Source: Pseudomonas oryzihabitans
Lineage (GTDB): Bacteria > Pseudomonadota > Gammaproteobacteria > Pseudomonadales > Pseudomonadaceae
NCBI RefSeq assembly: GCF_024652905.1
Contig: NZ_CP102428.1
Coordinates: 2,182,501-2,246,500 of the forward strand
Reading direction: 5' to 3'
DNA: 64,000 nucleotides
The first letter of the stretch is position 1, and every line of letters begins with the position of its first letter. The notes below the pieces were generated by a model. It searched no databases and had not been told where the DNA came from. It saw only the letters and a program-made list of their open reading frames with translations. Shown one piece after another: positions 11,380 to 22,874 of the stretch. The position numbers and the translations under genes are program-made.

Positions 11380-13782
11380 TCAGAGGGTCCACTTCAGGCT
11401 GAGCATGACGTTGCGGGGATCGCCGTAGACGCCGGTACCAGTGCCCGTTGGAATGCCCTGCCAGTATTTCTCGTCGAAAATGTTGTTGAAGTTGACGCGA
11501 CCATCCCAGTGCTCGTTGAAACGATAGCCCGCCATCACGCCCACCAGCGCATAGCTATCCTGTTTGGCTTCGCCATTACCGACACGCTCGAAGGTCCCGC
11601 TCTGAGCCAGCAGATCGGCGCCAATGCGCCACTTGCTCAGCTCGCCGGTGAGCTGATAGCTGGTGGCGGCCTTGAACAGGTGCTTGGGCTGCTCCGGCGC
11701 GAAGCGGCGGTCTTCGTAAACAGCGTCTTTCGTGAACTCGCTCAGCACCAGGGTATAGGCCGCCGACGCCTGCCAGTTGGGTGCGAATTGACCGGAGATT
11801 TCCGCATCTATGCCGCGACTGCGAACCTCGCCAGCGGCGGTGTAGCAGCTTTGCACCGGATAGCCCGGGCAGAAGGTCGCCTGGTTGCTCGGCAGGTAGG
11901 CGCGATTTTCCTGGACGGTGTCGAAGAGCGCGACGGAAGCGTTCAAGGCGCCATCGAAATAGGCGCCCTTCAGCCCGATCTCGTAGCTTTTGCCGGTCCG
12001 GGGTTCAAGTACCGAACCTCCGGTGTTCTGCTCGCTTTGCGGCTTGAAGATCTCGGTATAGCTGGCATACACCGAGTAGGTGTCGTTCAGGTCATAGATG
12101 ATGCCGGCATAGGGCGTGAATTCGCGTGTGGCCTTGTAGTCGTTGTCACTGTAGAGATTGTCGAAGTCGTACCAGCTGACGCGTCCCCCAACGATGACGT
12201 GCAGGGGATCGATCGGATTGAGACGCGCAGCAGCGTAAATCGCTTCCTCGGTGGTGGTGTTCTTGCTGGCGTAAGGCGTCAAGCTGTCCTTGGCCGGCTT
12301 GGGAATGCTGCTGGGACGGAAGTTGTAGATGTCGACCGGGGTTGCGCCGGAAAAGCCCCCGCGCTGGTAGAACTTTTCCTGACGCCGACTGATGCCCACC
12401 ATCAACTCATGCTCTCGACCCAGCAACTGGAAGGGGCCGCTCACCGAGGCATCGAGGTTGAGCTGGTCGGAATCCGTCCGATAGGCACCGGAGGCGGTGG
12501 CCAGATCGCTGACGGAGGAATAGCTGAAGTCCGGCGCTACAGAGGTCAGGTAATTGGAATAGGTATCCGAATTCGCCCAGACCTGCTGCGCTGCCAGCTT
12601 GGCCTTCCAGCCGTTGTCGAAGGTGTGGGTGATGTCCGAGAACAGGGTGTAGGTGTCCTGATCCCAGTACGCCCAGTCGCCGCTCAGGAAGGTGGAGCGT
12701 GACAGGTGCAGGTCTTCGCCATTGGGACCGCTGGGCAGGCTGCCCCAGTCGGAGGTCTTGTCCTCGCGCTGCTTGGAGGCGCCGATGGTCCAGGTGGTAG
12801 CGTCGCTGAGATCCGCTTCGAGCACGCCATAGAAGGTCTGGCGTTTGCGCTCGCGGACGTCCTGGAAGCTGTTGCTGTCTTCATAGGCAGCCACGGCGCG
12901 GCCGCGCAGGGTGCCAGCTTCATTCAGCTTGTTGGAGGCGTCGACCTCGGTACGATAGCGATCCCAGCTGCCGGCGCTGGTGGTGACGCTGACCTGCGGA
13001 AAGGCGGTCGGGCGTTTGCGCACCAGATTCAGGGTGGCCGAGGGATCACCAGCGCCGGTCATAAGGCCGGTGGCGCCGCGTACCACTTCGACGCGGTCGT
13101 AGATGGACAGGTCGGCCGAAGACAGGGTGTCGAGGGTAAAGGTCCCCGCCGTGGTGGGCAGACCGTCGTACATGATGTTGTCGATGCGGAAACCGCGCGA
13201 CAGGAATTCCTGACGATCGCCACCGAACTTGTTCAATGTCACGCCCGGGGCATACTTCACGACGTCATTGAGGTCGGTCATGCCCTGGTCTTCCATGCGT
13301 TGCCGGGTGATGACACTGACCGACTGGGGCGTCTCGCGGATGGACAACGGCAGGCCGGTAGAGGTGCTCATCGCCCCGGTCGTGTAGGAGCGAGTGCCCT
13401 CGGTGCTCGCTCGTCCCACGAGCGAGCCATCGTCGGCGGTGATGGTGGTGGCATCCAGCGCCACGCTACCGGTCCCGGCCTGGGTGGCTGCCGGGGCGAC
13501 GGTGGCGACGTTGCCGGACAGCGAGGCGGCCAAGCCACTGCCGGCCAGCAGCCGCTGCAAGGCAACGTCCGGCTCCATCCGCCCCGACAGCGCCGGCGCA
13601 CCTTTGCCGGCCAGGGCCGCGGGATCGTAGTTCACCTTCAGGCCGCTGGCGCGCGCAAAGCTCTGCAGGGCATCGGCCAGCGGCTGCGCCGGTTGCGACA
13701 GGGCGATGGGTGCTGCCTGGGCCAAGGCTGTCACGCCCAGGGAAACGGAGAGCGCCAGGGCGCGAAGAGTGAAGTGCTGCAT
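11380..13782 (-). CDS. TonB-dependent siderophore receptor with STN domain
   Basis: This 800-residue outer-membrane receptor should import a ferric siderophore using TonB energy. A signal peptide (about 1-23, ending AQAA) precedes a secretin/TonB N-terminal (STN) signalling domain (about 25-95: PLADALQSFARASGLKVNYD). The plug follows (about 145-260: RETPQSVSVITRQRM, DRVEVVRGATGLM), then a 22-strand barrel. The family is FpvA/FoxA-like; the ligand is not predictable. The STN domain normally signals to an anti-sigma/ECF sigma pair, but none lies beside it. The last residue is Leu rather than the usual aromatic. A candidate Fur box lies about 140 bases upstream. Confidence 0.93.
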   Translation of the reverse strand: MQHFTLRALALSVSLGVTALAQAAPIALSQPAQPLADALQSFARASGLKVNYDPAALAGKGAPALSGRMEPDVALQRLLAGSGLAASLSGNVATVAPAATQAGTGSVALDATTITADDGSLVGRASTEGTRSYTTGAMSTSTGLPLSIRETPQSVSVITRQRMEDQGMTDLNDVVKYAPGVTLNKFGGDRQEFLSRGFRIDNIMYDGLPTTAGTFTLDTLSSADLSIYDRVEVVRGATGLMTGAGDPSATLNLVRKRPTAFPQVSVTTSAGSWDRYRTEVDASNKLNEAGTLRGRAVAAYEDSNSFQDVRERKRQTFYGVLEADLSDATTWTIGASKQREDKTSDWGSLPSGPNGEDLHLSRSTFLSGDWAYWDQDTYTLFSDITHTFDNGWKAKLAAQQVWANSDTYSNYLTSVAPDFSYSSVSDLATASGAYRTDSDQLNLDASVSGPFQLLGREHELMVGISRRQEKFYQRGGFSGATPVDIYNFRPSSIPKPAKDSLTPYASKNTTTEEAIYAAARLNPIDPLHVIVGGRVSWYDFDNLYSDNDYKATREFTPYAGIIYDLNDTYSVYASYTEIFKPQSEQNTGGSVLEPRTGKSYEIGLKGAYFDGALNASVALFDTVQENRAYLPSNQATFCPGYPVQSCYTAAGEVRSRGIDAEISGQFAPNWQASAAYTLVLSEFTKDAVYEDRRFAPEQPKHLFKAATSYQLTGELSKWRIGADLLAQSGTFERVGNGEAKQDSYALVGVMAGYRFNEHWDGRVNFNNIFDEKYWQGIPTGTGTGVYGDPRNVMLSLKWTL

Positions 13783-14193: not shown

Positions 14194-15507
14194 ATGTGCC
14201 AAGGAATGCCACCAAGGTCCATGACCCGTCTGCGTCGTGGGCTGCTGCTAGGCGTACTAGGGCTGCTGATCCTGGCCTGTGATCCCTTGGGCTTGTCCAG
14301 CGCCACGGACAAGGCCAGCGAACAATTCTTCAATCGACTGCTGTCGGCCTTCTACTCCGATCGCGGCCAGCAACAGATCGTTTTGCTGTTGCTGGACGAT
14401 GCCTTTCTGCTTCGGCACGATCTGCATTGGCCTCTGCCTTATCAGGAACAGGCCAAGGTGTTGGCGCGGCTGCTGCATTATCGGCCCCAGGCGGTATTCG
14501 TCGACCTGCTGTATAGCCATGATCACTCCCGGGCGAACGAGACGCCGCAGGTACTAGCCAACGTCTTCGCCCGCTATGCCCAGCAGGACATTCCAGTGTT
14601 ACTCGCCAGCACCGGGCAGACGCTCCCGCAGACGAATCAGGCGGATACCCTGTCTGAGCTGGCGAAGGTGACGAAGCCGGCCATCATCCAATGGGATGAC
14701 CAGGGGGACCGCTATCCCCTCACCGTAACCGGCAGCGACGGTCAGCCGCTGCCTACACCTGCCCAAGCGCTCTATCAGGAATACTGTCAACGCCAGACTT
14801 GCGAGCTGCGTGAGATGGCAGCGGATGCGCCTCCCATCGCCGTGCAATGGGGACTGCATACGGCTAGCCAGCAGCCTTTGCTCAGCAACAGCCAGCATTG
14901 CCAACTGCGCTCCAGTGCCCTGGCGGAGACCTTCCAGATGGTGCTGACGGCGTTGTTCTGGCGCTTCTCCACTCCCGCGACCCTGCCCTGCCCCTATACC
15001 CTCACCCTGAATGCAGCGGAACTGGAAACGACCCTGCCCGAGGAGCGGGCGCTGCTGCGCAGCGTATTACAAGGGCGCCTGGTTCTGGTGGGTGCCGACA
15101 TCACGGGGGCGGCGGATCGCATCCATTCACCGGTTCACGGACAGATCCCGGCGGTCTATCAGCACGCCATGGCCTTGGATAATCTCATTACCTTACAGGC
15201 CGACTACTACCGAGACCCGCCAAGCCTGGGCGATACCTCACTGGATGTCATCAGTATCGTCGGCCTGGTGTTTGCAGCCGCCATCCTCGCCATCGTCCTG
15301 GTTCGCGAGCAAGGTTGGTTCACTAGGCTCTACCTGAGAACGGTGCTGGCAATCCTCCTGTTGGCCGCCATGGCCGTCTGCTACCTGCTGAGCCTGACGC
15401 CGCTCAACGTGGTCGGTCTGGGACTGCTCAGCCTCACCCTTTTTCGCAATCACCTAGAAGCTCGGGCGGAGACCCGAGATCACATCCGGCAAGGAGAACA
15501 ATCATGA
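14194..15507 (+). CDS. CHASE2-domain membrane protein without output domain
   Basis: This is a sensor-like envelope protein of about 437 residues. An N-terminal hydrophobic segment (RGLLLGVLGLLILACDP) precedes a periplasmic CHASE2 domain. Its features are a dimer-type IVLLLLDDAFL strand, YRPQAVFVDLLYS, and a C-terminal GRLVLVGADITGAADRIHSPVHG motif. Three transmembrane helices follow (about 345-365, 375-395, 400-415). After them only a short charged tail remains, so there is no kinase, cyclase or HD-GYP output. AAGGA eight bases upstream supports the ATG at 14194. A start at 14221 would give a 20-residue signal ending ILAC-D, a possible lipobox. The stop overlaps the next gene by four bases. 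Confidence 0.78.
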   Translation: MCQGMPPRSMTRLRRGLLLGVLGLLILACDPLGLSSATDKASEQFFNRLLSAFYSDRGQQQIVLLLLDDAFLLRHDLHWPLPYQEQAKVLARLLHYRPQAVFVDLLYSHDHSRANETPQVLANVFARYAQQDIPVLLASTGQTLPQTNQADTLSELAKVTKPAIIQWDDQGDRYPLTVTGSDGQPLPTPAQALYQEYCQRQTCELREMAADAPPIAVQWGLHTASQQPLLSNSQHCQLRSSALAETFQMVLTALFWRFSTPATLPCPYTLTLNAAELETTLPEERALLRSVLQGRLVLVGADITGAADRIHSPVHGQIPAVYQHAMALDNLITLQADYYRDPPSLGDTSLDVISIVGLVFAAAILAIVLVREQGWFTRLYLRTVLAILLLAAMAVCYLLSLTPLNVVGLGLLSLTLFRNHLEARAETRDHIRQGEQS

Positions 15508-15863
15508 TCAAAGCCTGGCTCACCAGCGCAATTCTCGTGGTATCGCTTGAGCTTCAGGCCGCTCCCCTCACGGTCGTGGCGATCGAGAGCGACCCCTTGA
15601 GCCTGCTCGACCCACTCGGCAAACCCTTGGGTAGCCTGTCTCGGGATCGCCTGCCCCAGCTGCCGCTGCCGGTCTTGTCCACCAACGAACTGGATCTAGT
15701 GGAGGTACAACTGGATGGCCGGCGAGTCTGGCTGGACCGGATGGACGTGCGCCTGAACCAGGGCGCAGAGGTAAAGATGCCGTGCGCCAAGCTGGCCAGT
15801 GGCACGGCCGACCGCAGCAGTGGGGCCACCTTGGGCTACGGCGCCGGCTGCGCTAAGGAGTAG
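15504..15863 (+). CDS. Small exported protein, unknown function
   Basis: This 119-residue protein has a signal peptide (about 1-20, MIKAWLTSAILVVSLELQAA). The rest has short alternating hydrophobic strands (LTVVAIESDPLSLLD, DLVEVQLDGRRVWLDRMDV) that suggest a compact SH3-like beta fold. Two cysteines near the C-terminus could form a disulphide. No known family was recognised with confidence. AAGGAG lies seven bases upstream. It overlaps the CHASE2 gene by ATGA and ends two bases before the M48 gene, so the three are surely one operon. Confidence 0.7.
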   Translation: MIKAWLTSAILVVSLELQAAPLTVVAIESDPLSLLDPLGKPLGSLSRDRLPQLPLPVLSTNELDLVEVQLDGRRVWLDRMDVRLNQGAEVKMPCAKLASGTADRSSGATLGYGAGCAKE

Positions 15864-15865
15864 CG

Positions 15866-17449
15866 ATGAACACCGCCCGCGCTGTCCTACCGCTGCTCTT
15901 TGGCTGCCTCGTGCTGAGCGGATGTGGGACGCTCACCGGGGCGCCCGATGCCCTGGCCAATCTGTCAGGAAAGCATACGTATGCCACCTTCGACGGCCAC
16001 TATCTGGATCAACCGGATGTGCGAGCCCACCGCACGCTCGATGCCCGGCACGTCGAAAACCTGCGCCTCAGCTACGATGGCCGCAGTCTTCCAGCCAATG
16101 AGGTGCGCCAGCAGAACCTCGTCGCCATTGCTCCGCTACAGGAGTATCTGGATGGCATCGTGCAAAAACTCGGGCGGGGCTGGCCGGGTGAGATGCCATC
16201 CCTCAAGATCGGCCTGGTCGACAGTTACGCCTTCGGCCCTTCGGCCGATCCCTACGGCAACATCTTCGTGCCCCTGGGGATGTTGGAAAACGTCGCCAGC
16301 GAAGATGAAATCGCCGCCATGCTGGCTCATGAAATGAGCCACGTTCTGCTGCGGCACCATGATCGCCGTAAGGCGTTCATCCAGCAGAAAGAGAACGTCA
16401 CTCGCATGGCGACCTTGGCGATCTTGGGTGCGACAGTGGCCGACACGCGCATGGATCGCGCTGGCGATCAGGTCCGCTTCAACCAGAAGAATCCCGCTGA
16501 AACCGGCAAGATCATCAACCGTACCCTCCTCTACAGCGCCTTGATCAACAGCTTTTCCGACAATGTCTGGAACACGGCCTGGGGCCGCGTCCAGGAGGAT
16601 CAGGCAGATCTGCTCGGCGTCGACCTACTGATCCGTGCTGGCTATGCACCGCGGGCCGCCAGCCACAGCCTGCAACGCCTGGACGACTACCAGGGCAAGC
16701 AGACCCCGCTGATGGCCACCTTTCTTCAGGAACGCCAGTTGGGCCTCACGGCGGCGGTTACCAAGCTGGATGTCAATGGGGTGCTCAAGGAAGCTCAGAC
16801 ATTCCTCAATCAAGGCATGCTGGTAAGCATTACCACGGCCAGTGACTACCTGCAGCGCTCGCACATGTCGCCCATGCAACGTGATAAGGACCTGCGCCAG
16901 TACCTGCAGCGGGAGTATCAGGGCGAGCGGCGCGCCCAGGTGGAGCGCTCGCGCTGGTCGCACCTGCGTGAGGATCTTCGGGTACGGGCCGCACTCAGTG
17001 CCTACCGCGATGCCTATGGCGCCAATGTGGCCCTGGAACGCAAGGATCTGCGAGGTGCTCAAGCCCTGGTCGAACGTGCCCTGTCATCACCGGTAGCCAA
17101 CCAACCCGGCATCCGCCGTGCAGCCTTCAATCTTCACCTGGCCCAGGGTAATCGGCAGCAGGCGGCGGCAACCCTGCAGGCCATCGAGAACTGGCGCCTG
17201 GCGAGTCCGGAGCTTTACGAGCTGGCAATTTCCGCACGCCTGAACAACGGCGATCCCCAGGGTGCGCTCGCCTTGATCGATCAAGGCGAGCAGAACTTCG
17301 GCTCCGAAGAAATGTTCATCGTGCAGAAGATCCATGCTGCGCGACAACTCAAGGACCAGCCCGCCCAGCAGCGGCTGGGTAAGAAATGCCTGACCTATCC
17401 CAGCGTCAAAGCCAATTGCGTGAAGTTGGTGCCAGGGCTGAAGGCTTGA
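15866..17449 (+). CDS. M48-family zinc metalloprotease, lipoprotein, with TPR-like C-terminus
   Basis: This is a periplasmic, membrane-anchored protease of 527 residues. A lipoprotein signal ends in the lipobox LSGC (Cys20). The M48 catalytic motif HEMSH lies at residues 155-159 and the third zinc ligand falls in EDQAD (Glu244). The C-terminal third (about 370-520) consists of helical repeats (GAQALVERAL, GNRQQAAATLQAIEN, GDPQGALALIDQGE) typical of TPR-bearing BepA/LoiP-like quality-control proteases. It may act on outer-membrane or envelope proteins. It is the third gene of the CHASE2 operon, which suggests that the CHASE2 sensor and protease work together. Confidence 0.85.
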   Translation: MNTARAVLPLLFGCLVLSGCGTLTGAPDALANLSGKHTYATFDGHYLDQPDVRAHRTLDARHVENLRLSYDGRSLPANEVRQQNLVAIAPLQEYLDGIVQKLGRGWPGEMPSLKIGLVDSYAFGPSADPYGNIFVPLGMLENVASEDEIAAMLAHEMSHVLLRHHDRRKAFIQQKENVTRMATLAILGATVADTRMDRAGDQVRFNQKNPAETGKIINRTLLYSALINSFSDNVWNTAWGRVQEDQADLLGVDLLIRAGYAPRAASHSLQRLDDYQGKQTPLMATFLQERQLGLTAAVTKLDVNGVLKEAQTFLNQGMLVSITTASDYLQRSHMSPMQRDKDLRQYLQREYQGERRAQVERSRWSHLREDLRVRAALSAYRDAYGANVALERKDLRGAQALVERALSSPVANQPGIRRAAFNLHLAQGNRQQAAATLQAIENWRLASPELYELAISARLNNGDPQGALALIDQGEQNFGSEEMFIVQKIHAARQLKDQPAQQRLGKKCLTYPSVKANCVKLVPGLKA

Positions 17450-17567
17450 TCCGTTACGCGAGGGACGCTTCCTGACCATGGGGCATCTCCGATTCGGCAT
17501 CCGAACACCCTGTACAGGACCGCCCGTCCGGCTTGGCGATGTCACAGATAGTCGGTGCCGCACCCGT

Positions 17568-19565
17568 TCAGACCAGGCGCCGACTTCCCCCCGCCCCTTC
17601 ATCGCGAAAATGCTGGGCGATGGTCAGGATCTGCGGCTCGATGGCCAGGAAGGCATCGAGCACCTGGGGATCGAAGGTGCTGCCACGCATCTCGCGCATC
17701 ATCTGCAGCGAGTCTTCGTGGCTGAAAGGCTCCTTGTAGCAGCGACGACTGATCAGCGCATCGTAGATGTCGGCCACCGCCATGATTCGCCCGGCCAAGG
17801 GAATGTCTGTACCGGACAGCCTGTTGGGATAGCCGCTGCCGTCCCATTTCTCATGGTGGGTACTGGCGATCTCGGCGGCCAGGGCGAGGAAGTTGTCATC
17901 CTCCAGATGGCTGGCGGTGCTGAGGATGATCTGGCGACCGAATTCGGCGTGCCGTTGCATCACCTGCATTTCCTCGGGCGTCAGCCGCCCGGGCTTGAGC
18001 AGGATGGCATCCGGCACCCCGACCTTGCCGATGTCATGCAGCGGCGCGGACAGGAACAGCAGCTGGATATAGTCCGGCGTCAGCAGGTCCGCCGCCTGAC
18101 CGGTGCGTCTCATCTGCTCGGCGATGGCACGGACATAGTGTTGGGTGCGCTTGATATGGGCACCGGTCTCGGGATCCCGGGTCTCGGCCACCGCGGCCAT
18201 CGACTCGATGGTGACCTGGCGTGACCGTTCCAGTTGCCGGCGCCAACGCTCTTCGTACTGGCGCGCCAGGATGATCCGGGTGACCAACGCCAGGCCCGAC
18301 AACATCGCCACCAGCAGCAGGAGCGCGGCCAGGGGCAGGAAGACGTCGTAGCGCACGAACAGCCAGATGCCCAGCAGCTGTGGCAGGATGATCAACGCTG
18401 CCGCCAACAGGGCGAAGCGGCGCTGATTGCGGTTGTAGAAAAACCCGGCGGACAACAATAGGCCGCCGATCAGGCACAACGCCAGTTGCAGTACCCCGGC
18501 GAACTGGGGGATCCGCACCAAGGCGTCGTCCAGCAGGTCCTGGGTCAGGGCGGCCTGCAGCCTGACACCGGAAAAGGTCTGGCCCAGGGCCGTCGTGTGC
18601 AGATCATTGAAGCCCGCGGCAGATACGCCGACGAAGACCACCTTGCCCTTGAGCCTGGCGGGCGCCGCCGCGCCGCTGAGCACCGCCAGCGCCGAGACCT
18701 CAGGATAATGCTCGGCAGTGCTGTGCAGGTGCAGCAGCGCCTGGCCTCGGCTGTCGAGCGGCAGACGGTGATCGCCAAGCCGCAGCACCGGTCCGGTGAC
18801 GCTGGTCTCCACTACGCCCTCGGTCAGCCCCAGGGCGCGCATGGTGGCGGCCAGGGCCAGACTGGGATGGATGATGCCCTGATGACTGAGCAGCAGGGGG
18901 GCGCGCCTGAGGATGCCATCGCTGTCACGCTGGCTGTTGATGAAGCCGCTGAAGCGCGTTTGACTGGCGATAGGGGCTACGTTGTCCAGCGCGCCAGTGG
19001 CCTCGGGCAGCGCCAGGGCGTCGAGGGCACCGCTGAAGCCAACCCCGGGCCGTAGGCCGCTGGAAGCGGGCTGGTGCAGATCGAGGAAGAAGAAGCGGGC
19101 GGCGATGGCCCCCGTCTGTCCCATAACGTAGCCAAGATAGCCATCGTTGTCCTGCAACTCCGCAGGCACACCGGAAAAGCTCAGGTCCATGCCGAAGTCG
19201 TCTTTGAAGCTCTGCTGCAACGCCTTGAGCGAGGTGCGGTCCGGCTCGCTGAACAAGACGTCGATGGCGATCGCGGCGGGCTCGGCTTCGGCGATGCGGG
19301 AGAGCAGCTCGGCTACCCGATAGCGGGGCCAGGGCCACTGGCCCAGTGCCGCCAGGCTGGCTTCGTCGATGCTGACCACCTGTACCCCGGTCGCCTCCTC
19401 GTCGCTGGCCGAAAAGCGGCTCAGCTGATCGTAGGCGAGGCGGTCGAGATGCTGCAGGGGCGTCCATTGCAGCAAGGCGGCGAAGCCAAAGGCCAGTGAC
19501 AGCCCCAGACTGACCAGGAACATCCAGGGCGCGCGACGACGCAACGGGTGGGTGACGGATTTCAT
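17568..19565 (-). CDS. CHASE2 sensor with HD-GYP c-di-GMP phosphodiesterase output
   Basis: This is a 665-residue inner-membrane signalling protein. A transmembrane helix (about 13-32) is followed by a periplasmic CHASE2 domain (about 40-345: VQVVSIDEASLAALGQWPWPR, KGKVVFVGVSAAGFNDLH). Three more helices (about 356-376, 385-403, 408-430) lead to a cytoplasmic HD-GYP domain. HDIGK lies at 510-514, then THHEKWDGSGYP around 569-580, so the metal ligands and GYP signature are intact. It should hydrolyse cyclic di-GMP in response to a periplasmic cue. It is the last gene after the FecR and OmpA genes, ten bases from the OmpA stop, and converges on the M48 operon. Confidence 0.92.
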   Translation of the reverse strand: MKSVTHPLRRRAPWMFLVSLGLSLAFGFAALLQWTPLQHLDRLAYDQLSRFSASDEEATGVQVVSIDEASLAALGQWPWPRYRVAELLSRIAEAEPAAIAIDVLFSEPDRTSLKALQQSFKDDFGMDLSFSGVPAELQDNDGYLGYVMGQTGAIAARFFFLDLHQPASSGLRPGVGFSGALDALALPEATGALDNVAPIASQTRFSGFINSQRDSDGILRRAPLLLSHQGIIHPSLALAATMRALGLTEGVVETSVTGPVLRLGDHRLPLDSRGQALLHLHSTAEHYPEVSALAVLSGAAAPARLKGKVVFVGVSAAGFNDLHTTALGQTFSGVRLQAALTQDLLDDALVRIPQFAGVLQLALCLIGGLLLSAGFFYNRNQRRFALLAAALIILPQLLGIWLFVRYDVFLPLAALLLLVAMLSGLALVTRIILARQYEERWRRQLERSRQVTIESMAAVAETRDPETGAHIKRTQHYVRAIAEQMRRTGQAADLLTPDYIQLLFLSAPLHDIGKVGVPDAILLKPGRLTPEEMQVMQRHAEFGRQIILSTASHLEDDNFLALAAEIASTHHEKWDGSGYPNRLSGTDIPLAGRIMAVADIYDALISRRCYKEPFSHEDSLQMMREMRGSTFDPQVLDAFLAIEPQILTIAQHFRDEGAGGSRRLV

Positions 19566-19575
19566 GCACCAGACC

Positions 19576-20208
19576 CTAGAGAATCAGGACTTCGGCACGG
19601 CGATTGCGCGGCTCCGACTTTCCCGGACGAGACGGCACCAGTGGCACCGTGTCGCCGAAGAACTCGACGTTGATACGCAGTTTGGGATCGAGCCGCTGCA
19701 GCAGACCGGCCACCTTGCGGGCGCGCTGCCCCGAGAGGTCGAGATTGTAGGAAGGCGTACCCGACGCATCCGCGTGGCCGAATACCGAAATCTCGGTAGG
19801 CATGCGCTGGCGCGCAGCGTCCAGCACCTCTGGTAGCAGCGCTTTGGATTGCGGTGTCAGCTCCATACTGTCGGACCGGAAGTTGAGCACGAAGGTCTTT
19901 GGCGGCGAGGGCTGGGCCGCCAGCACCTGGCGGTGCTGCTGCTCGAAGAGCGGCTGGGCCACTGACTGCGCGGCAGTCGGCGCCTGATTCGGTCCGGCTA
20001 CCGTAACCTCGGCAAAGCCCTGGTCGATTGCCTGGCGCCCGGCGGAGCTGGTGACGGAGACGGCACCGACGTGCCCATCCTCGTCGGGCATCAGGGTGAC
20101 CCTGGTCTGGGGCAGCGGCGGGCTGGCACAGCCGCCCAGCACCAGCGCCGACAGCAGGACACCTAGCAGCAGGCGACCCTGGGACGAGGCAGCGATCACG
20201 GCGCTCAT
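19576..20208 (-). CDS. OmpA-domain lipoprotein
   Basis: This 210-residue protein has a lipoprotein signal (LVLGGC, Cys27). A linker of about 75 residues is followed by an OmpA/MotB peptidoglycan-binding domain (about 105-210) with the motifs VFGHADASGTPSYNLDLSGQRARKVAGLL and EPRNRRAEVLIL. It should anchor the outer membrane to the cell wall and may relay wall status. Its ATG overlaps the FecR-domain stop by four bases (translational coupling), and the CHASE2/HD-GYP gene follows within ten bases. Confidence 0.88.
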   Translation of the reverse strand: MSAVIAASSQGRLLLGVLLSALVLGGCASPPLPQTRVTLMPDEDGHVGAVSVTSSAGRQAIDQGFAEVTVAGPNQAPTAAQSVAQPLFEQQHRQVLAAQPSPPKTFVLNFRSDSMELTPQSKALLPEVLDAARQRMPTEISVFGHADASGTPSYNLDLSGQRARKVAGLLQRLDPKLRINVEFFGDTVPLVPSRPGKSEPRNRRAEVLIL

Positions 20209-20654
20209 TGGGCCTGGACCAGGAAGCGGGTGCCACGCACGCCGATGGTGGCGGAAGGCGTCTCGATCTTCACCGAGTCGGGCGAGACCTTGCCGATCTT
20301 GCCGGACGAGTAGATGGCCGCGCCTTTGGTGAGGTAGACCGAGAAGCCATAACGGCTGCTCTTGGGTTCAAACAGGTAATCGCGCAGCTGCACATCGGCG
20401 TCGTTGCCCAGGGTGAGCAGGGTACCGTCGAGAAAGACGATGGCCGCGGTGGATTCCGGGCCCGCCTGCAAGCGATCGGCCACCTGCAGGGTGGTGCCGG
20501 CCTGGGCCTGGAAGGTCGTCGTCTGACGCAGCACCTTGACGCTGCCCGACACGCTCTTGATCAGCGCGACGTGGGACTCTTCCGCGGCAGTCACCAGTGG
20601 TGATCCCAGCACCTGCACACCGAGCAGCGCCAACGCGCACAGTATTCTTTTCAT
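20205..20654 (-). CDS. Exported FecR-domain protein
   Basis: This 149-residue protein has a signal peptide (about 1-23, ending VTAA) and a FecR domain in the periplasm. Its motifs include GSVKVLRQ, LQVADRLQAGPESTAAIVFLDGTLLTLG and ETPSATIGVRGTRFLV. It lacks the N-terminal cytoplasmic anti-sigma part of true FecR, so it is a FecR-like wall or surface sensor module, not an anti-sigma factor. It is the first gene of the FecR-OmpA-CHASE2/HD-GYP operon. No iron-uptake genes are linked to it. Confidence 0.87.
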   Translation of the reverse strand: MKRILCALALLGVQVLGSPLVTAAEESHVALIKSVSGSVKVLRQTTTFQAQAGTTLQVADRLQAGPESTAAIVFLDGTLLTLGNDADVQLRDYLFEPKSSRYGFSVYLTKGAAIYSSGKIGKVSPDSVKIETPSATIGVRGTRFLVQAQ

Positions 20655-21605: not shown

Positions 21606-22874
21606 TCACTTGTCCAGCGAAGGCCCTACCAGCGCGGCGAGCTGATCGTAGACGCCGGGCGCTGCCACCAGCAGGGGATTGCCATTGACCAGGCCCTCGT
21701 TACGCAGGAAGGCGTTGTGGCGGCCGCCCGCCTCCTGGATCAGGACCAGGCCCGCCAGGCAGTCCCAGCCATGGATCAGGGTCTCGTAGTAGCCGATCAG
21801 CCGGCCGGCGGCGACGTAGGCGGTCATCAGGGCGCCCGAGCCATTGCGAAAGAACTGCCCGCCTTCGGCCAGCAGACCGGTCACGAAGGGCAGGAAGTTT
21901 TCCTTGCCACGTCTGTGGGTGGTACCCAGGCCGGTCAAGCCCTGGCGGATCTCGGTGGCGGGATGGACACGCAGTGGCTGATCGTTGACGAAGGCGCCAT
22001 GCCCCCGCAGGCCATGGAAGAGTTCGTCGTGATTCGGATCCATGATCGCGCCGAGCAAGGGCTCCCCCTCGTGCATCAGGCCGATGGACACGCACCAATT
22101 GTGCAGTCCATTGAGAAAGGGCGCGGTGCCGTCGATGGGATCTATGACCCAGAGATAGGGGGCAGCCAGATCGGTTGCACCGCCCTCCTCGCCCAGCAGG
22201 CCATCCTCCGGAAAGCGCTCGCTCAGGCGTTGGCGGATGAGCTCCTCCAGCGTCTTGTCGGCGATGCTCACCACGTCCTGCAGGTCGCTGCCCTTGTGGT
22301 CCACCTGCAGCGCGCCGCGCCGGTGATAGAAGTCGAGGCCGAGTTGCGCCGCTTCCCGGGCGATCTCCTGGACGGCGCGGTAGCGTTCGGCGATGGCGGG
22401 GGCAATGTTGACCATGAAGACTCCTGGAGCAGTTGAAAAGCGCCAGGGTGCCAGCTCGGAACCAAGATGCAAATCCTCCATACGGGACGGCACCAGGTCA
22501 TCGTCCTCAAGCAGAATTACGGCGTCCGGCAACCAACCCGTGTCTCCAGTCATAGTGGTACAGAATACAAATCCGCTCTCACTGTAATGCAATCTCAATT
22601 GGTCGCCTTCGCGGACATTCAATTCCAAGGCTGCGAAATCGCGCTTGAGTTGCCAGCCATCGGCGCAAGGCTGGCACCAGGCGTTGGGCACCCAACCAGA
22701 ACGACCATCCACAGCTTTGCACCATGTCCAGCCCAGCATATCCGTGATCTCTTGCGAGCCATCGATTACCGGCTGAACGATATCGCCGCCTGCAACTGCC
22801 AGCGGATTTGGATAAGGTCGTTGATAGGCGAGACTGGCGCTACCTAAGGTGCCAGGAGGAAAGCGATAGAACAT
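21606..22874 (-). CDS. SH3-domain / inositol-monophosphatase in-frame fusion
   Basis: The 422-residue frame has two parts. Residues 1-150 form two SH3-type repeats (GWTWCKAVDGRSGWVPNAW; TGDTGWLPDAV). Residues 154-422 form a complete inositol-monophosphatase-family enzyme with GEEGG, the metal-binding DPIDGTAPFLNG motif and GWDCLAGLVLIQEAGG. The phosphatase would hydrolyse inositol phosphate, 3'-phosphoadenosine phosphate or a similar substrate. An internal ATG at 22415 has CAGGAG about seven bases upstream and gives a normal 269-residue phosphatase. The enzyme may therefore be made alone, as a fusion, or both. No stop codon separates the parts. Confidence 0.8.
   Translation of the reverse strand: MFYRFPPGTLGSASLAYQRPYPNPLAVAGGDIVQPVIDGSQEITDMLGWTWCKAVDGRSGWVPNAWCQPCADGWQLKRDFAALELNVREGDQLRLHYSESGFVFCTTMTGDTGWLPDAVILLEDDDLVPSRMEDLHLGSELAPWRFSTAPGVFMVNIAPAIAERYRAVQEIAREAAQLGLDFYHRRGALQVDHKGSDLQDVVSIADKTLEELIRQRLSERFPEDGLLGEEGGATDLAAPYLWVIDPIDGTAPFLNGLHNWCVSIGLMHEGEPLLGAIMDPNHDELFHGLRGHGAFVNDQPLRVHPATEIRQGLTGLGTTHRRGKENFLPFVTGLLAEGGQFFRNGSGALMTAYVAAGRLIGYYETLIHGWDCLAGLVLIQEAGGRHNAFLRNEGLVNGNPLLVAAPGVYDQLAALVGPSLDK

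Follow-up and report, generated by a model that had tools for sequence, protein, structure and literature searches.

What does a CHASE2 membrane protein do when it carries no cytoplasmic output domain, and does it work together with a second CHASE2 receptor encoded beside it? These questions are raised by a locus in Pseudomonas oryzihabitans (assembly GCF_024652905.1, contig NZ_CP102428.1), within a stretch of 64,000 nucleotides that we analyzed as a whole and call the window. Two operons converge there. In one, gene A encodes an output-less CHASE2 protein, B a small exported protein and C an M48 metalloprotease; in the other, F encodes a FecR-domain protein, E an OmpA-domain protein and D a CHASE2 receptor with an HD-GYP output. 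A and D are the only CHASE2 proteins (E-value ≤ 0.001) in the 5.2 Mb genome of this strain. The initial annotation joined the two operons into a single module that senses the state of the wall or envelope. We find that A-B-C and F-E-D are two independent envelope modules, neighbors in a few species. For A-B-C, we give about an even chance to a model in which the receptor A and the SH3-like protein B govern C as a periplasmic protease, with F-E-D as a separate module.

The A-B-C operon as a conserved unit

The genomes that we searched are thinned samples, many of the loci come from close relatives, and some of the loci retrieved by name are the same records as loci from the sampled genomes. Among 248 Pseudomonadaceae genomes, A matched in 27, B in 24 and C (E-value ≤ 1e-17) in 25. 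All 24 B genomes and all 25 C genomes were also A genomes, with adjacent coordinates. All three proteins exceeded the cut-off in 22 of the 27 A genomes, and four others proved complete when the loci were read directly (L044, L046, L052 and L058). A separate collection of 48 named loci was returned via two short C patterns, so distant triads are missing from it. Each of its 43 pseudomonad loci has A, B and C in this order on one strand, with A interrupted in one of them; the other five, from Arsukibacterium, have an M48 match only, gave no match to A or B, and were excluded from the 43.

The operon also extends to other families. A matched in nine of 370 gammaproteobacterial genomes at an E-value ≤ 1e-5, the window included, and we fetched seven of the eight non-window loci (G656 was left out). 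Complete copies of A-B-C were present in four of these (L124-L127), each from a different family other than the Pseudomonadaceae, and their proteins are distant from those of the window (25-28% identity for C and 24-30% for A). Additionally, one fetched locus (L129) is cut by a contig end, and another (L130) contains a different CHASE2 type with a weak FecR match. The surroundings of the operon vary: among the 16 largest clusters of flanking open reading frames shown, 15 were confined to either the Stutzerimonas-type loci or the other Pseudomonas loci, and a transporter ATPase was the one cluster common to both main groups. In their main clades, the trees built from A and from C coincide. Because the three genes occur jointly, across families, with differing flanks and with concordant A and C trees, we conclude that A-B-C behaves as a tight unit.

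In both of these trees, P. entomophila and P. faucium are the company of a record named Pantoea sp. Ap-967 (L071), whose name therefore looks doubtful.

Association between A-B-C and F-E-D

We next consider whether this unit is tied to its neighbor. Within the window's genus we compared 13 genomes. CHASE2 and D were each found in 10 of them and A in two, the window genome (G000) and Pseudomonas sp. EpS/L25 (G010), the nearest named relative. In both A-bearing genomes F-E-D adjoins A-B-C in the same orientation, as expected of one functional module. The remaining eight of the ten D genomes, however, have D without A, and a TonB receptor gene directly follows D in each. In the window this gene, which encodes a TonB-dependent receptor with an STN domain (11380-13782), lies upstream of A; it was not found at the corresponding place in G010 (L062). 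The D tree also separates the two A-bearing genomes, placing G010 as sister to a species without A (support 100/100) and G000 beside three species without A (82/88), within a six-species clade (100/99).

In the wider family, CHASE2 occurs in 144 of 398 genomes, and A-B-C is regularly found without F-E-D. Nearby F-E-D is missing from 42 of the 43 named pseudomonad loci, the exception being Pseudomonas sp. EpS/L25 (L091 has a weak OmpA match, at 28%, that we did not count). Likewise, all 18 sampled loci with a short CHASE2 gene (L043-L060, 14 kb each) have A and C matches and none has E or F, the only D matches in them being to the CHASE2 domain of A itself. The two operons thus occur independently of each other, the outcome that the initial annotation itself took to mean simple neighborhood, and on the combined evidence of co-occurrence and the D tree we rejected the one-module reading, which is largely refuted. 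What stands of the original grouping is that A-B-C is a tight unit and that FecR, OmpA and CHASE2 genes form a recurrent unit of their own with variable output.

Between the window and G010, A, B and C are 86-87% identical and D is 76% identical, and these values led us to consider a recent horizontal arrival of A-B-C beside F-E-D. Divergence at fourfold-degenerate sites gave this no clear support: it is 0.31, 0.38 and 0.37 for A, B and C, 0.43, 0.52 and 0.41 for D, E and F, and 0.44 and 0.375 for two neighboring genes. The guanine-cytosine content of third codon positions is lower in A (0.73) and C (0.74) than in B and D-F (0.80-0.84), a weak hint toward recent arrival. We consider an old presence of A-B-C with subsequent losses at least as likely. 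The similar fourfold-site divergence of A-B-C, D-F and their neighbors means that the adjacency itself may be old, which also counts in favor of a joint module.

A last point for a joint module is that a CHASE2 gene, an M48 gene and an HD-type gene recur together elsewhere. In 18 loci of another clade (L138, L139, L141, L142 and L164-L177) a CHASE2 gene is followed by an M48 gene shorter than C, with a GAF-HD gene convergent to them. The CHASE2 protein is a cyclase in L138 and L141, the two scanned (the cyclase scan covered these two, L132 and L061). All 18 short M48 proteins contain HPx4R, and 12 of them have a lipobox pattern. The GAF-HD proteins keep HHExxxGxGYP and none matches HD[VILM]GK, so their activity is unsure. 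Open-frame size was the criterion for 14 of the loci, which were added to an initial four; 17 of the 18 come from one genus, and CHASE2 proteins of similar size in L061 (670 residues) and L140 (660 residues) have no M48 match; we therefore regard this arrangement as the product of one or a few evolutionary events. One part of what the initial annotation perceived gains some support from these loci, although with a different CHASE2 protein and a different M48 protein. In them the M48 gene next to CHASE2 belongs to another subfamily than C, which makes a functional link between CHASE2 and M48 proteins likelier. Set against the independent occurrence of the operons, these points leave it very unlikely that A-B-C and F-E-D form one functional module.

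Protein features and putative control of C

The gene layout is given in Table 1. The six open reading frames lie where the initial annotation placed them, in two operons that converge within 120 bases. A/B and F/E overlap by 4 nucleotides each, and the gaps are 2 nucleotides between B and C and 10 nucleotides between D and E; this tight spacing makes each trio read as an operon. We found no terminator-like site in the 118-nucleotide convergent gap, and promoter signals at the locus were in no excess over shuffled sequences.

Table 1. Features of the locus, in window coordinates
Feature	Position	Strand	Evidence
Gene A, output-less CHASE2 membrane protein, 437 residues	14194-15507	+	Pfam, hydropathy, model
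CHASE2 domain of A, residues 31-358	14284-15267	+	Pfam
Gene B, small exported protein, 119 residues	15504-15863	+	Alignments, model, Foldseek
Gene C, M48 metalloprotease lipoprotein, 527 residues	15866-17449	+	Pfam, lipobox
HEMSH zinc-binding motif of C, H155-H159	16328-16342	+	Alignment of 21 rows, no variation at H155, E156 or H159
Putative active-site plug of C, H333-x5-R339 (HMSPMQR)	16862-16882	+	Motif comparison with HPX4R of BepA
Convergent spacer between the A-B-C and F-E-D operons, 118 nucleotides	17450-17567		Sequence reading
Gene D, CHASE2 receptor with HD-GYP output, 665 residues	17568-19565	-	Pfam
Gene E, OmpA-domain lipoprotein, 210 residues	19576-20208	-	Pfam OmpA, LGGC
Gene F, exported FecR-domain protein, 149 residues	20205-20654	-	Pfam FecR

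The domain content described by the initial annotation was likewise borne out, with Pfam calls judged against curated cut-offs (26.3 bits for CHASE2, PF05226, and 20.3 bits for Peptidase_M48, PF01435). CHASE2 scored 65 bits in A and 181.5 bits in D, Peptidase_M48 56 bits in C, HD_5 121.5 bits in D, OmpA 51 bits in E, and FecR, the only family in F, 43.6 bits. Both lipoboxes are present (LSGC in C and LGGC in E), the HEMSH motif of C is intact, and D carries the HD-GYP motifs HDIGK and HHEKWDGSGYP, which fit HDxGK and HHExxDGxGYP. By hydropathy, B, C, E and F have one membrane stretch apiece, at the N terminus; A and D have one at the N terminus and several at the C terminus. The initial view of the locus as one of envelope-facing sensors holds.

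CHASE2 is the sole Pfam family matched by A, whose start we set at 14194 with AAGGA upstream. Its layout is the usual one for CHASE2 proteins, with one N-terminal transmembrane helix, the CHASE2 domain, a C-terminal transmembrane cluster and a short tail. Consistent with this, the predicted model has a helix at residues 10-29 and three C-terminal helices within 352-436, and the CHASE2 domain would face the periplasm. The cytoplasmic output domain of CHASE2 signaling receptors (cyclase, kinase or GGDEF/HD-GYP), which D has in its HD_5 domain, was not found in A: no output domain exceeded the cut-off in A or in nine divergent homologues scanned, although one of these ends at a contig edge (L129) and in another the CHASE2 domain itself fell below the cut-off (L128). 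A sequence search of the PDB with A returned no match. The missing output, together with an in-frame stop in one record, would fit a decaying receptor, in which case A-B-C would have no signaling role beyond expressing C. However, many residues are invariant across 27 aligned A sequences, 25 of which are 38-46% identical to window A, and the linkage is kept across families. Decay is thus very unlikely.

No Pfam or NCBIfam model matched B. B is predicted to form an SH3-like barrel followed by a C-terminal tail, in which alignments show two conserved cysteines, C94 and C116. The predicted model contains a seven-stranded barrel, with residues 21-80 in blocks of predicted local distance difference test (pLDDT) scores of 92-96, and a disordered tail. 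A Foldseek search gave a list rich in SH3 domains and no hit at an E-value ≤ 0.001; its top three entries, the second of which is named an SH3 domain, had a probability of 1.00 but E-values of 0.02-0.04. The PDB sequence search gave a single match, with an E-value of 0.22. On its model, B is a putative SH3-like barrel.

C has both hallmarks of an M48 protease, the HEMSH motif and a downstream glutamate ligand (EDQAD), and H155, E156, H159 and E244 are invariant in 21 aligned rows. In BepA, the zinc is covered by a plug, HPX4R, that is said in PMC7950410 to be conserved in the family. The corresponding residues of C, H333 and R339, are also invariant in the 21 rows, with methionine in place of the proline after the histidine; this plug was assigned by motif, not by structure. 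In a set of 27 C sequences, which includes window C and some near-duplicates, HExxH, the glutamate-ligand motif and H-x5-R were all found by pattern in 27 of 27, some sequences having more than one pattern match, and the proline is kept in one (L127). C resembles BepA, LoiP, YcaL and HtpX in its zinc ligands and in the histidine and arginine of its putative plug, and LoiP and YcaL also in its lipobox. The C-terminal half of C is weakly TPR-like (TPR_19, 18 bits, below the cut-off of 25), a counterpart to the TPR domain of BepA, and a PDB sequence search returned 3c37 and BepA entries. C is nonetheless distinct from these proteases: it scores far below the NCBIfam cut-offs for the BepA equivalog NF052400 (43.4 against 570 bits) and for LoiP NF052399 (25.6 against 365 bits), its plug proline is replaced, and it is encoded with a CHASE2 protein and B.

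Taken together, these features suggest how the operon may work. We propose that A, in the inner membrane, and B, in the periplasm, hold, place or switch the lipid-anchored C. Like BepA, the protease would have its zinc covered by the His/Arg plug and so stay latent, to be released by an envelope signal or by binding of a substrate, and the response would be made in the periplasm by C itself through proteolysis or chaperoning. In this scheme the contact between A, B and C, their sidedness in the membrane, and the control of C, its direction, its signal and its substrates are all presumptive, and we put its chances at about even; the most cautious reading is joint action of A, B and C in the envelope. 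A wider version is possible and on the doubtful side. Here A-B-C would be a sensor module with its output outside the cytoplasm in several gammaproteobacterial families, A gating C via the dedicated adaptor B, and M48 proteases would be general partners of CHASE2 proteins, as the second locus type suggests.

The flow of information could also be reversed, with C and B as the sensor side and A as a reporter that signals inward, via its transmembrane helices, to a cyclase or phosphodiesterase encoded elsewhere. The other CHASE2 proteins that we scanned carry cyclase, kinase or HD-GYP outputs, and the second CHASE2-M48 pairing uses a CHASE2 cyclase (L138 and L141), where the signal would run inward. 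However, no cytoplasmic signaling partner travels with A-B-C among the 16 flanking clusters shown, a comparison that did not extend to partners encoded elsewhere, and we consider this reversal unlikely. Alternatively, A and/or B may be substrates or clients of C, through regulated proteolysis or with C as a dedicated chaperone for A. The tight linkage fits an enzyme-client pair equally well, and M48 proteases act in membrane-protein quality control, as PMC7950410 describes. Yet a dedicated protease for one output-less membrane protein would in our judgment be unusual, and B would be left unexplained, making this account quite improbable.

Several observations weigh against the proposal that A and B govern C. 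A keeps its C-terminal transmembrane cluster and could signal inward via a partner, and in one record (L054, the same as L096, from Pseudomonas pseudonitroreducens) it is broken by an in-frame stop. The A model is only moderate (mean pLDDT 69.6, and 49.6-57.2 for the other four models), and a fold search with it against the PDB gave no match at an E-value ≤ 0.001. The matches behind the SH3-like reading of B have E-values of 0.02 or weaker, and B itself is not always present: L180 has A and C and no B at an E-value ≤ 1e-5, and in L128, where A and C occur, B was not found. The lipobox pattern was found in only 16 of the 27 C sequences, none of them from L124-L128, so lipid anchoring is putative in the distant C proteins. 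The operon is patchy, being found in 27 of the 248 Pseudomonadaceae genomes. In the record with the interrupted A, B and C still match over their length.

F-E-D, its relatives and known systems

The second operon belongs to a recurrent trio. In all 25 loci that we fetched at length (L131-L135 and L184-L203), FecR and OmpA genes share a strand and a long CHASE2 gene runs toward them; these loci make up 25 of the 29 best-scoring CHASE2 rows in the wider-family search. A GAF-HD gene falls within the fetched stretch in 15 of the 25, and the CHASE2 protein of L132, the only one of the 25 scanned, carries a cyclase. In L145 all three genes point the same way, with a hybrid kinase as output. Among the matches listed, an HD-GYP output appeared in no genus other than that of the window. 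A search with D found matches at an E-value ≤ 1e-40 in 135 of 342 gammaproteobacterial genomes, and among those listed only window D covers both the CHASE2 and HD-GYP parts in full; the G516 match, over residues 27-452, belongs to a hybrid kinase. Seven more loci with a long CHASE2 gene (L061, L136, L137, L140, L143, L178 and L179) have no M48 and no OmpA match, and FecR was found only in L137, where it adjoins a CHASE2 kinase. We conclude that FecR-OmpA-CHASE2 is a recurrent trio with variable output. In F-E-D, E would be anchored to peptidoglycan and, together with F, would relay the state of the wall or envelope to the CHASE2 domain of D, and D would hydrolyze cyclic di-GMP, an activity predicted from its motifs.

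When neighboring genes were scanned and the remaining open reading frames read by eye, no extracytoplasmic function sigma factor gene was found beside F. The nearest scanned neighbors encode the TonB receptor, a histidine phosphatase, an inositol-phosphatase-like protein and a protein without a family. The inositol-phosphatase-family protein, encoded nearby (21606-22874), unusually carries a variant SH3 domain at its N terminus.

Both operons have partial parallels in systems described elsewhere. According to PMC13001267, the Sinorhizobium meliloti CHASE2 cyclases CyaD1, CyaD2 and CyaK respond through the outer-membrane protein NsrA, which sets a precedent for CHASE2 receptors with a partner in the outer envelope. 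A-B-C shares with that system a CHASE2 sensor and an outer-envelope partner, but no output domain was found in A, and the genes linked to it encode B and an M48 lipoprotein. In magnetotactic bacteria, mtxA, which encodes a TPR protein, precedes a CHASE2-cyclase gene, according to PMC4439547. The BiofilmReg operon of Burkholderia, as given in PMC5192318, comprises a response regulator, a LysM-FecR protein, a CHASE2 kinase and a DUF4136 protein. F-E-D likewise has a FecR-domain periplasmic protein beside a CHASE2 receptor, but has OmpA in place of LysM and HD-GYP in place of the kinase, and the trio lacks the response regulator and DUF4136; L137, with its CHASE2 kinase beside a FecR protein, is similar to BiofilmReg as well. 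The same three families as in F-E-D make up L131-L135, L184-L203 and L145, with CHASE2 convergent in the 25 and with a co-directional hybrid kinase in L145. Among the papers that we saw in the openly licensed literature of PubMed Central, which lacks most subscription papers, none describes A-B-C. Its families, except that of B, are already known.

A-B-C offers a small, testable system for asking what CHASE2 domains sense. The operon, which many ordinary species of Pseudomonas and Stutzerimonas carry, gives a context to the orphan protein B, and it lets one ask whether a receptor in the membrane can mount its response in the periplasm.

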